A stretch of DNA of 64,000 bases from Dactylellina haptotyla (lineage: Eukaryota; Ascomycota; Orbiliomycetes; Orbiliales; Orbiliaceae): positions 3,596,001 to 3,660,000 of the forward strand of contig CM062379.1 in assembly GCA_031310005.1 (NCBI GenBank), in the 5' to 3' direction. Under the pieces are notes generated by a model, which saw nothing but the letters and a program-made list of their open reading frames with translations, made no database searches and had not been told where the DNA came from. A program made the position numbers and the translations under genes. Shown piece after piece: positions 36,318 to 45,069 of the stretch (the stretch's first letter is position 1; each line of letters opens with the position of its first letter).

Positions 36318-38400
36318 ATGGGGAACTGCAGCTCGTGCTGCGGAAGTACGCCTTTCCTTCCTTTGTCGTCATCTCCTCGATACCAGAAACAGTCCGCTAA
36401 CCTTGTCTCCTGTCTTAGACCGGTCGGACGGTTACAATGAAGTCCCCCAACTAGCCGAGAGCGAAAGAGAAGCCGTCTCCGACCTTCTTCAATATCTCGA
36501 AAATGTAAGGAAATTCGAAAAAATATAACCTCGTCATCACCGGGATTTTCTTCCTAGTCCCCCCCAAACAGACGAGAGGAAATGAAGGAGACGAGAAAAT
36601 GAAAGCAGAAAAGACTGACCCGAGGTGTGTGAATGCAGCGAGCCGAGACGGACTTTTTCTCAGGCGAACCCCTTCGGGCACTGAGCACCCTCGTATACTC
36701 GGACAATGTCGATCTTCAGCGAAGTGCCAGTCTGACATTTGCTGAAATTACCGAAAGAGGTTCGTTCGGAGGCGCCCTTTGAACACCCCTTGCCCGTGAA
36801 CGTTCAGGTATCTAACCTTCTCTCACAGATGTCCGAGAGGTCGACCGGGACACTCTCGAGCCGATACTCTTCCTCCTACAAAGCTCCGATGTCGAGGTCC
36901 AAAGGGCCGCCAGCGCGGCTCTCGGAAACCTCGCCGTCAACAGTACGTCTCCCTACGCCGACTGACACCCATGTCCAAAGTATTGACTCCAATTTCGTAT
37001 AGCACAAAACAAAGTCTCTATCGTACAGCTGGGCGGCCTCCCACCCCTGATACGACAGATGATGTCACCAAACGTTGAAGTGCAATGCAACGCCGTCGGA
37101 TGCATCACAAATCTTGCGACCCACGAGGATAACAAAGCCAAAATCGCGAGATCCGGGGCACTTGGTCCGCTCACTAGACTCGCGAAATCTAAGGACATGC
37201 GTGTTCAGAGGAATGCGACTGGTGCCCTTCTCAACATGACCCATTCCGACGACAACAGACAGCAACTCGTTAGCGCCGGTGCAATCCCCGTTCTCGTCTC
37301 CCTCCTATCCTCACACGACCCAGACGTTCAATACTACTGTACGACAGCCCTCAGCAATATCGCTGTGGACGCTGCCAACAGAAAGAAACTCGCGCAGACC
37401 GAACCTCGCCTCGTTCACTCGCTCGTGCATCTGATGGACTCTTCCAGCGCCAAGGTTCAATGTCAGGCCGCACTGGCACTCCGAAATTTGGCTTCGGATG
37501 AGAAATACCAACTGGAAATTGTCCGATCCAAGGGTCTACCTCCCCTCCTGAAACTCCTCCAGGCTTCGCTACTTCCTCTCGTCCTCTCGGCCGTTGCTTG
37601 TATCCGCAATATCTCAATCCACCCGCTCAACGAATCCCCTATAATCGACGCAGGATTCCTAAAGCCGTTGGTTGATTTGTTGGGAACGACGGAAAACGAA
37701 GAAATCCAATGCCATGCAATTAGTACTCTGCGTAACTTGGCCGCCAGCTCTGACCGCAACAAACAATTGGTATTGGAGGCTGGAGCCGTCCAGAAATGCA
37801 AAGATTTGGTTCTCCACGTGCCTCTCAGCGTTCAATCCGAGATGACAGCGGCCGTTGCTGTCCTCGCTCTGAGCGACGAGTTGAAACCACATCTGCTCAG
37901 CCTGGGCGTTTTTGACGTCCTGATCCCACTTACCGATTCCGAAAGTATTGAAGTCCAGGGAAATAGTGCCGCTGCGTTGGGTAATCTATCTTCTAAAGGT
38001 ATATTCGTCCCCTTAATACATGGTTCAACGATGCCATACTAACAGATCTTCAGTTGGCGACTACAACATGTTCGTACAGGACTGGACCCAACCGTCCGGC
38101 GGAATCCATGGATATCTCAAGCGCTTCCTCGCCAGCGGCGATGCTACCTTCCAACATATCGCCATCTGGACCCTTGTGCAGCTCCTCGAGTCTGAAGACC
38201 AGCAACTGAAGAAACTCATCCTCCAATCCAAGGAGATTGTCTCGACCATCCGAGCCATCGCCGAGAAGAACATTGAGTCGGATGACGAAAGCGAAGATGG
38301 AGAAGCCGAAGTTGTCCAGTTAGCGAGGAGGGCTTCCGACTTGTTGAGCCAATCAGGCACCGAGCAAAACCAAAAGGAGGCCGTAGCAAAGCATCCGTAG
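36318..38400 (+). CDS. vac8: Vacuolar armadillo-repeat protein VAC8, 563 aa
   Basis: Armadillo-repeat scaffold on the vacuole membrane, used in vacuole inheritance, nucleus-vacuole contact and autophagy. Six exons: 36318-36345, 36419-36504, 36639-36759, 36829-36942, 37003-37998, 38054-38400. The start MGNCSSCCG offers Gly2 for myristoylation and Cys4, 7 and 8 for palmitoylation, all in the 28-base first exon. Armadillo repeats with the pattern AALGNLAVN or NLATHEDNK fill residues ~80-500. The acidic C-terminus ([12 protein letters not shown]) ends the protein. Length and repeats match fungal VAC8. Losing the first exon would remove membrane anchoring. Confidence 0.96.
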
Positions 38401-40129: not shown

Positions 40130-41960
40130 ATGCCAGTGCCAACGGGAGGAATTGTGGTGGTATCTGGTGGGAGTGCAGCAAATAGTCTCGTCTGTTACAC
40201 ACCTATTTCCTGAACTTAAATATATTTCGTAATATCCGGCTAACTATTCGGGTCGTATAGGTCGATGTTTTCAATAATGTCAGCGCAGGAAGCCCAATCT
40301 CGTATATTATTGGTATATCGGATAATGGAGGTATATTTTATAAAATCGAATTGGTTTCTTATAAAGCAGCAGGCTGACATATATTTTTGGGATGGGTGTC
40401 TAGGCTCCACATCTGAGCTTATTCGTATGTTATAAACCTCGTCGAAACTAGAATCACGACATGATTTCTTTAACAATACTGATAAATGGATGTGTAGGTG
40501 TCTTCGGTGGCCCGGGAATCGGTGACATAAGAAGTCGACTTGTCAGACTTGTACCCGAAGAACCTGAGGATGAGGAAAGGTTGCGCATCAAGCAGCTTCT
40601 GAACTATCGTCTGCCGCCGTCTGCCGAGACTGCTAGGCACGAATGGAATCTTATCATTGAAGGGACACATGATAAGTGGATCGGAATATCATCTGAGAAG
40701 AAAGAGCTTTTAAGAAGTTTCTTCATTCTAGTACGATTCTACGGGAAGCTTTACCATTTTGATATAAACATATTTCTTATCGTATGACGTGAACAGGTTG
40801 GATCTGAAATCACCAAACGCACACGGCCCACGAGCACGTTCAACTTCCAGCTCGCCTCACTGGGTAACCTGTTCATCACCGGATGCCGTCTCTTTTTCGG
40901 GTCCCTCGAATCCGCTATCTTCCTCTTCCGCTCCATCTGCGGCATTCCAGAGCACACGCACGTCATCCCCGTACTAAACAGTAACTTCAGTCACCACATC
41001 GCCGCAGGATTATCCGACGGCACCGTCATAGCCGGACAGAACCAGATTTCCCATCCGTCCGAGGAACCCTTAACGAACAACCAGCTCGTAGCAGGGAATA
41101 AAGCGCTATCGGAACTCACCAATAAACTAAAATCCCAGAATCTCTCTGCTCTAAATGTATCCTTAGCGAACTCCGGGTTTCCAGGAGCGGGCTCGACCAC
41201 GCCGTTGAACCCAGGATACTCCACGCCAGTGGTATACATGCACGACCACGATGAAGTCGAAGACGCGAATCTTCCAGGCTCACTACCCTCCCTCCGTCGG
41301 GGTAACATAATTTTCACAAAAGAAGAAGAGGCGGAATTATCCGCTCGGATCCAGCGGATCTGGTACATCAACCCGTACGGACAGGAGATACGCCCACAGG
41401 CGAACCCGAAGAGTTTGGCCGCGGTGAGAGCCGCCGAGACGGTGGTGTATAGCATCGGCAGTCTGTACACGAGTATCATACCCTGTCTTATCCTACGCGG
41501 GATGGGCGAGGCGATCGCTACATCATCGTCGTGTAAGCACAAGGTGTTGATTTTGAACGGCTCGTTCGACCGCGAAATCGGTCCGGGGAGGACGTTTACG
41601 GCGCTAGATTTTGTGAAGGCGATTACTAATGCGTGCGTGGAGTCTAGAGGGGTTATTGCGGGCGAGGAAGGGTTCGAGCGGTTGACTGCGGAGGCGGAGT
41701 ATAAGAAGTACGTTACGCATGTGTTGTATTTGGAAGGCGAGGGGGTGCCGAAGGTCGATACGGCGAAGTTTAAAGAGTTGGAGATTCATTGTTGGAAGGT
41801 GGTCGGGAGGAAGAACGATGGTGGGAAGGGCATGTTCTTTGAGGCGGCGGCGTTGACACAGGCGTTGGAGATGATTAGAGGGAAGAGGCGGTCGCCGAAG
41901 CAGAGGAGGTCGACGGTGGATTCTGGGAGGAGAGGGTTTCTGCCTGTGCTTGAGATATAG
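40130..41960 (+). CDS. CofD/YvcK-like (UPF0052) family protein, 515 aa
   Basis: Five exons: 40130-40189, 40261-40330, 40404-40424, 40498-40730, 40797-41960. Exon 3 is 21 bases. The spliced N-terminus gives the nucleotide-binding signature of the family: VVVSGGSAANSL, then GISDNGGSTSEL, then RVFGGPGIGDIRSRL, with introns falling inside each block. A conserved middle block is SDGTVIAGQNQISHPS. Bacterial and archaeal relatives are LPPG:FO 2-phospho-L-lactate transferase (CofD, coenzyme F420) and YvcK/GlmR (carbon metabolism). Fungi are not known to make F420, so the substrate here is unknown. A C-terminal basic tail (RGKRRSPKQRRS) is extra. Confidence 0.88.
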
Positions 41961-42230: not shown

Positions 42231-42923
42231 TCACCTGGGCAAACGAGAACGTGTCTGGGGCATATCACCCTCCGTAGGAGCACGATGCAGAAGATCTGTT
42301 AAATTTAAGTCCTTCCACATGGGCTCCTTTTCTTTCTGTTGAGCTCGGGCGATACCAAAGGCGGCTGTGTAGTAGGAGGTATTTCAGTAGGTTTAACCTC
42401 TAAATCCTTGTATCTAGATGCTCGAAGCCTGCATCTGGCTTACCATGTTGGTCCGGGATGACTAGACGTTAAACTATTAGCAAGGCATCAATTTACTGTG
42501 ACAGTATACCAGATCACATACCATCATCTTCGTCTTCTGGGTTTATCGGTTGATGTTCGGGTGGAACGTAAACCTCTAATTGGCGTTAGATAATGAAAAT
42601 GCTCATTGGGACAGGAGCTGGGCATACCGTCATTGGGAAGCTTGTCACGACAGTAGTCCTAATAAGCAACATGGTAAGCGTATAATAATCCAAGGGTTCA
42701 AATTTCAGGAGACTTCATATACCTCGTACTGCTCGACGATGCGAGGCAGGCGAAAGTGGACGTAGCTAGCACAACGCGAGTCAAGTCAGAGTCTGTTGCA
42801 TTTTGAGGCTGATACGAGTTCGCCGTAGCCGCCTCACTTACGTGCGGTTAGAGTCGCGGGACTATATATGCAATCGTTAGCCTCGCCGTTCGGACAGCCT
42901 CCATTGTTCGGCAAACTCACCAT
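42231..42923 (-). CDS. apc13: Anaphase-promoting complex subunit APC13/SWM1-like, 100 aa, seven exons
   Basis: No long open frame marks this gene; I assembled it from splice signals. Exons 42921-42923 (only the ATG), 42842-42861, 42723-42765, 42628-42658, 42522-42575, 42444-42461, 42231-42364; introns are 52-79 bases. The product keeps frame at all six junctions. It has the APC13 pattern: a short N-terminus, then DYCRDKLPNDEVYVPPE (compare animal APC13, WREDKLPYEDVAIP), an acidic linker, and MWKDLNLTDLL (compare MKWTDLALQYL). APC13 is a small scaffold subunit stabilising the TPR arm of the cyclosome. RNA evidence would settle the start exon, since an ATG-only exon is unusual. Confidence 0.78.
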
Positions 42924-43390
42924 CTTGATCCGAGGGTGCGCAGGTGTATTACATGTAGATACCAACCAGCTCAGAGGCTCGGACGATGGTGTTGGCCTGA
43001 GGTTTAGGTGTTGCCGGAAACAAACAAACAAAGCGCGATCAGGTGATGGTCTCTTATCTATCTCATCTCAATCAGCGCTGGTTTCTGTTAGGGCTCCGAC
43101 GATTTCTTGGCGCCCACAAACCAGAAAATTAATTTTGGCTGGTCCTCCCAAATTCGACACAATTCCCATCTCCCAGCAAGCATCGACGACCAGGACAGCC
43201 AAACCCGCCAACCTCCTATCTCCCACCAACCCTCACGAAAAGTCAACCTGTACGTAGCCGAAACACCCATATCTCTCGAAACCTCTTCCCTCTGTCGACT
43301 GGGAAATACATTTATCATTTTGTCTCGCGAACAGCACGCTGATTGTTGACCGATAGAACTTCGACTTACCTCGACCTTTTACTCGCAAAC
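42924..43390. other. Divergent promoter region of APC13 and RPS29
   Basis: About 470 bases between divergent starts. The bases just before the RPS29 ATG are pyrimidine-rich, as in ribosomal protein gene leaders. No named element is certain. Confidence 0.5.
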
Positions 43391-44598: not shown

Positions 44599-45069
44599 CT
44601 ATTTCGCTTTACAGAATTTAGCATAGACTTCCTGCCCCTGGCTACTGAAAGTAATGATATCCAACTTTTCACCCGCTTGAACGGCAGCTTTTATACGATC
44701 AACCTCGAATTCTGGAGGTAGCTCTATGAGCGTCTCGTTATCGACTCCTTCTACTGGAACAGGGTCGGTAGTATTTTCTCTCGTATTCTTCGGCTTTAAA
44801 TATAAATAGTTCTCGTCAATCTCAACGAGAGAGAACCTTTTTATCGAACCTGCGGCTATCTGGATGGTATGTGTCGGCTTGCTTAGAATTTCGAGCTTTC
44901 TCTGCGTGAGAATGTTACGAGCGATCACATGTACTTTCGGGCGACCCGTCTTGCCGGGCTTTGAACGAGATATCTCCAGGACCTTGTAAGGAGCGTTATC
45001 AGACCAGATGTAGTCGCCTAATTTTATTTCAGCGAGGACTTTGGTAACTATTTCGGTATTTTCGGTCAT
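44599..45069 (-). CDS. Divergent eIF5A-like protein, 156 aa
   Basis: Single exon. Length and order match eIF5A: an SH3-like N-terminal domain (IKLGDYIWSDNAPYKVLEI), the exposed loop, then an OB-fold C-terminal domain (FSLVEIDENYLYL). The Lys that becomes hypusine aligns with K40 (SKPGKTGRPKVHV), but the flanking loop differs from the nearly invariant STSKTGKHGHAK: Thr to Pro before the Gly, His to Thr after the Lys, and Pro for Ala two before the last Lys. The N-terminus is shorter and lacks the usual acidic stretch. It is likely a paralogue beside a canonical eIF5A located elsewhere; whether it is hypusinated is not predictable here. Confidence 0.72.
   Translation of the reverse strand: MTENTEIVTKVLAEIKLGDYIWSDNAPYKVLEISRSKPGKTGRPKVHVIARNILTQRKLEILSKPTHTIQIAAGSIKRFSLVEIDENYLYLKPKNTRENTTDPVPVEGVDNETLIELPPEFEVDRIKAAVQAGEKLDIITFSSQGQEVYAKFCKAK

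Follow-up and report, generated by a model that had tools for sequence, protein, structure and literature searches.

Do seven short coding segments on the minus strand of a Dactylellina haptotyla contig add up to a working gene for APC13, a conserved subunit of APC/C? We addressed this in a window of 64,000 nt (positions 3,596,001 to 3,660,000 of the forward strand of contig CM062379.1, assembly GCA_031310005.1), and all coordinates below are counted within it. The preliminary description had read 42923-42231 of the minus strand as a gene with six GT-AG introns and seven coding segments in intact frames, and this structure was reproduced base for base. When joined, the segments form a coding sequence of 303 nt that encodes 100 residues. 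The features are given here in transcript order:

42921..42923, minus strand: start codon, 3 nt, the coding end of the first exon, with the presumed 5' UTR part upstream
42862..42920, minus strand: intron 1, 59 nt, GTGAGT...TAG, branch-like GCTAAC
42842..42861, minus strand: coding exon 2, 20 nt, SRDSNR plus 2 nt; the profile match runs from position 1
42766..42841, minus strand: intron 2, 76 nt, GTAAGT...TAG, branch-like TCTGAC
42723..42765, minus strand: coding exon 3, 43 nt, completing the T codon, then YVHFRLPRIVEQYE
42659..42722, minus strand: intron 3, 64 nt, GTATAT...TAG, branch-like GCTTAC
42628..42658, minus strand: coding exon 4, 31 nt, DYCRDKLPND plus 1 nt
42576..42627, minus strand: intron 4, 52 nt, GTATGC...TAG, branch-like TCTAAC
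42522..42575, minus strand: coding exon 5, 54 nt, EVYVPPEHQPINPEDEDD plus 1 nt
42462..42521, minus strand: intron 5, 60 nt, GTATGT...TAG, branch-like GCTAAT
42444..42461, minus strand: coding exon 6, 18 nt, VIPDQH plus 1 nt
42365..42443, minus strand: intron 6, 79 nt, GTAAGC...CAG, branch-like ACTGAA
42231..42364, minus strand: coding exon 7, 134 nt including the TGA stop, AAFGIARAQQKEKEPMWKDLNL... to the end; matches Apc13p alone, unspliced

Our analysis suggests that APC13 (Swm1 in budding yeast) is very probably encoded here by a functional nuclear gene present in a single copy, in which the removal of six introns of ordinary form would yield the 303-nt coding sequence. Within the limits of sequence evidence, the preliminary description was correct on both the structure and the identity of the gene. 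We infer that it is transcribed and spliced, that translation starts at the listed ATG, and that the product is functional.

Identity of the predicted product

The product had been called APC13-like, and the APC13/SWM1 profile agrees with that name. Apc13p (PF05839) matches it over profile positions 1-87 of 89 with 101.5 bits (E 2.9e-29), against a curated cut-off of 22, and no other Pfam family matched the 100 residues up to E 1. Both stretches singled out as APC13-like, DKLPNDEVYVPP and MWKDLNL, lie within this match, together with an N-terminal block. The match starts at residue 3, which aligns with profile position 1, and its first positions are modestly supported, by 6 to 7 bits. NCBIfam gave no match up to E 1, as expected of a library aimed at prokaryotes, and a single-sequence search of solved structures returned, up to E 10, human APC13 (4ui9_M) as its sole match, at an insignificant E of 1.4. 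A scan of viral contigs for relatives gave five pattern matches, none of which was confirmed.

A six-frame search of the genome (39.8 Mb, 11 contigs) found one Apc13p match only, and no second APC13 copy was found in it. The exon recovered by this search was exon 7, at 28.4 bits and thus above the family cut-off (30.6 bits when scored separately); it was the sole exon matched, and it sits in a frame that stays open for 50 residues. Because only this exon was matched, and in so short a frame, APC13 may be listed as absent by a gene caller that makes no use of spliced homology. The locus therefore holds a lesson for annotation, that of a conserved cell-cycle subunit encoded in seven coding pieces, and it offers a compact test gene for the recognition of short fungal exons. 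A survey of plants lists rice APC13, and CDC26 of Arabidopsis, rice and poplar, under TC identifiers and the other subunits under gene identifiers (PMC3095333); we take the TC identifiers to be transcript contigs.

The gene resembles other members of the APC13/Swm1 family (PF05839) in its near full-length profile match, its product of about 100 residues and the single copy found. Its unusual features are the intron density, with six introns over a coding length of 303 bases, and an ATG cut off from all other codons by the first coding intron. Among the titles and abstract starts listed, none described this gene structure.

Splice signals and chance controls

Donors, acceptors and branch motifs were defined by their consensus forms. 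All six donors are of the fungal consensus type and all acceptors are YAG, with TAG in five introns and CAG in one. A branch-like NCTRAN motif lies 11-21 nt from the acceptor in five of the six introns; in intron 3 the sole NCTRAN is 47 nt from the acceptor, and a GCTTAC is found at 17 nt.

The number of models that the region admits depends strongly on these signals. From 43050 to 42150 on the minus strand, 1,379,472 models of at least 90 residues can be built if every GT-AG pair is accepted and introns may span 45-120 nt, a count so large that open frames alone carry little weight. Consensus donors cut this to 213, and when consensus donors are combined with YAG acceptors and the branch motif, a single model with at least six introns and at least 90 residues is left, which is the claimed one. 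None of 500 dinucleotide shuffles of this region was positive under the same strict grammar, a control that leans towards the claimed model since the donor patterns were written after the six donors were known. On the wider stretch 43400-42150 the grammar admits 26 models, of which 25 begin at an ATG at 43169 and the remaining one at 42923; among 500 shuffles, 1 was positive. When the window was cut into tiles of 901 nt, 1 of 282 was positive, with 13 models; this tile overlaps the APC13 gene, and all its models begin at 43169. As the complete gene falls inside no tile, the tiling is a check of specificity, not a test of recovery. Multiplied by the 1.4 million models, the Pfam E-value is still ~4e-23. 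In view of the Pfam score and the outcome of the shuffles, we reject chance assembly of the model.

Alternative splice forms and the start codon

A better start or set of acceptors, which would have given another protein, was sought among 13 complete alternatives, and all of these fell below the 101.5 bits of the claimed form, at 53.8 to 99.5 bits. In 43050-42150, all nine consensus-donor models of at least 60 residues that contain both APC13 blocks were scored, the claimed form and eight others, with at least 90 residues in eight of the nine; the scored models are a minority of the consensus-donor models as a whole, which number 1008 of at least 60 residues, with 50 of at least five introns in the wider stretch. 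Retention of intron 1 gave 95.5 bits with a donor at 42837 and 87.6 bits with a 2-nt exon. Shifted boundaries gave 80.6 bits (exon 4 from 42640), 77.5 bits (exon 7 from 42343), 70.5 bits (intron 3 donor at 42729 with exon 5 from 42573), 68.4 bits (exon 7 from 42331) and 67.6 bits (exon 5 from 42536), and four combinations of a retained intron 1 with other exon 7 starts gave 53.8 to 71.3 bits. A start at 43169 with an extra intron reached 99.5 bits. Since every complete alternative that was scored fell below the claimed form, support for the internal junctions of the gene is good.

The model is weakest at its start, which rests on 6 bits, on the quality of the donor and on the fact that no better start with a short intron was found. 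Inclusion of exon 2 adds 6.0 bits relative to the form that retains intron 1, in which the match runs from profile position 6, and 7.2 bits relative to a product stripped of its first eight residues, in which it runs from position 7. An in-frame TAG stands directly 5' of exon 2, so that reading this exon in the Apc13p frame needs splicing into it. Nine ATG-GT candidates would join exon 2 in phase 0 through a single intron of 45-400 nt, and ATG|GTGAGT is the only one of these with an intron below 239 nt. We also observed an ATG-TAA start-stop pair at 42949-42954 on the minus strand, separated by 25 nt from the APC13 ATG on its upstream side; if transcribed, the 5' leader would carry it as a minimal upstream ORF.

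Two of the alternatives keep the gene and change its N-terminus. If intron 1 were unused, ATG 42923 would be read through to 42838 and the next intron would leave from the GTGAGG donor at 42837, giving a protein of 121 residues that starts MVSLPNNGG and a gene with five introns. This frame is open, it joins exon 3 in phase, and the protein still matches Apc13p at the 95.5 bits given above. However, that match reaches back only to profile position 6 and falls 6 bits short of that of the claimed form, the 29 extra residues match no Pfam family, and the reading both skips the GTGAGT/GCTAAC/TAG set of intron 1 and prefers GTGAGG over the GTAAGT at 42841; we consider it unlikely. A longer N-terminus from ATG 43169, with an extra intron at 43117-43058, would make a protein of 162 residues from a gene with seven introns, and 42923 would then be an internal methionine. 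The splice grammar leaves this frame open and it runs in frame through ATG 42923, and 25 models of at least six introns are permitted from ATG 43169 in the wider stretch. The Apc13p match is kept at residues 65-150, and the gap of 2 bits on the same core is not decisive, as the two forms differ only outside the profile and the score cannot separate them. On the other side, the extra intron has a weaker GTGGGC donor, the 62-residue extension matches no Pfam family, and retention of intron 1 in addition (183 residues) drops the score to 94 bits. A short leader would also better suit the entry into a TPR groove described for known APC13 N-termini (PMC11473103), and we regard the longer form as very improbable.

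The odd structure of the locus might also be that of a decayed or silent copy of APC13, in other words a pseudogene. Yet the seven exons run without a stop or a frame break and the splice signals are intact; moreover, no other copy of this conserved subunit was found, and exons matching its partners are present in the same genome. This reading can be given hardly any credence, and we return to the claimed form, a gene with six introns and a product of 100 residues, in what follows.

Size of the exons and density of introns

The preliminary description drew attention to a coding exon consisting of ATG only. Three coding bases do precede intron 1, but they do not make an exon of 3 nt, as the 5' UTR belongs to the same exon. 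From how translation starts, the first exon must also hold 5' UTR, and so no 3-nt exon would face the spliceosome unless another intron in the 5' UTR were to end nearby. Among the complete internal exons, the smallest have 18, 20 and 31 nt, all within the usual size of a microexon, 36 bp or less (PMC11121469). Of these, exon 6 (18 nt) is frame-neutral in length, unlike exon 2 (20 nt) and exon 4 (31 nt).

There are precedents for exons of this kind. Arabidopsis APC11, with an exon of a single nucleotide (cited in PMC12940212), is likewise a small APC/C subunit gene with extreme exon fragmentation, whereas here no complete internal exon is shorter than 18 nt, and the piece of 3 nt is just the coding portion of a first exon. 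The one-nucleotide exon of Fusarium CYP621A (PMC12940212) and the microexon of Trichoderma Xlr2 (PMC11121469) are likewise very small exons of filamentous fungi that were missed by gene callers. Both are described as supported by transcripts in their papers, and the Xlr2 microexon as alternatively spliced; in contrast, the APC13 exons are predicted from the DNA. In Dactylellina haptotyla itself, two exons of 3 nt have been reported in both copies of lipS (PMC5639578). The gene is a new member of a known family; its very small exons have precedents and its intron density is notable. At six introns per 0.303 kb of coding length, the density is about 20 per kb. A survey of 122 species of Pezizomycotina, the group into which the host presumably falls, gives 0.98, 0.47 and 0.47 introns per kb (PMC8476143), and Fusarium core genes are reported to have a mean of 2.53 introns per gene (PMC5677156). 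Most likely, the density seen in APC13 was retained or accumulated neutrally.

The same genome was also searched with the LSM profile. Only 1 of the 12 matches covers at least 60 of the 66 positions in one place, and it has stops inside. Introns within small conserved genes therefore look common here, and the split is probably not confined to APC13, with the limit that short LSM matches could also stem from divergence. From 420 nt upstream to 60 nt past the match, an ATG followed immediately by a consensus-like donor was present at 1 of the 12 LSM loci (L021). At this Sm-like locus, which we take to be an SmB-like gene, GGCAAGATG runs straight into a GTAAGT donor, some 398 nt upstream of the match, and the ATG is probably an internal methionine codon, not a start. 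The same check on two APC/C loci (L004 and L011) was positive for L011, 287 nt upstream, where the ATG lies in an acidic open frame and is therefore probably no start. No second clear ATG-only start was seen in this small set of 12 LSM and two APC/C loci.

Predicted role in the APC/C

In the yeast and human structures, the N-terminus of APC13 is described as lying in the TPR groove of APC8A, and its extended chain as touching APC8, APC6 and APC3; Swm1 is required for APC3, APC6 and APC9 to be assembled in stoichiometric amounts, and can be replaced in yeast by human APC13 (PMC11473103). By analogy with these structures, the product predicted here would form an extended, largely disordered strap. 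Its N-terminus would enter the TPR groove of one copy of APC8 and the remainder would run over APC8, APC6 and APC3, holding together the TPR lobe of this ubiquitin ligase. Judging from the profile and the conserved blocks, its role is most likely the same as in the yeast and human APC/C.

Exons matching partner subunits were found in the genome by profile searches, with ANAPC8 in two places, ANAPC10 in three and zf-ANAPC11 in five. The best-scoring zf-ANAPC11 places are two neighbours on a single contig, and the remaining three are probably other RING proteins. ANAPC_CDC26 gave no match in this exon-blind search of the genome, in which the controls were equally silent, so that its absence is not implied.

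The dense introns may also have been kept because through them APC13, and hence the assembly of the APC/C, senses splicing capacity. If just intron 1 (59 nt) is retained, the Apc13p frame is broken, and six removals would be required, so that weak splicing would be expected to lower APC13 quickly and to delay anaphase. Skipping of exon 6, which is in frame at 18 nt, could give a shorter isoform. A distant hint comes from mouse T cells, in which an SF3B1 mutation is reported to lower Anapc13 through aberrant splicing of the 5' UTR (PMC11414738). We hold this idea to be very doubtful.

Genomic setting

Upstream of the APC13 gene, on the same minus strand, lies the ORF at 44599-45069, which encodes 156 residues and matches IF5A-like_N (45.4 bits, cut-off 27.1) and EFP_N (26.9 bits, cut-off 23); it possibly encodes a divergent eIF5A/EF-P-like protein. 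On the other side, a CofD-family ORF at 41205-41960 on the plus strand is convergent with APC13, and 270 nt separate the two stop codons. Two ORFs within 40461-41960 (plus strand) match the CofD profile in separate regions, the first of them reaching 18.5 bits against a cut-off of 30, and together they are probably a CofD-family gene split by an intron. Seven neighbouring ORFs were scanned, and no sign of a mobile element was seen in them. Further along, at 37059-38400 on the plus strand, an ORF with Armadillo repeats has an apparent intron near 38040, as judged from the ORF ends, and resembles VAC8.
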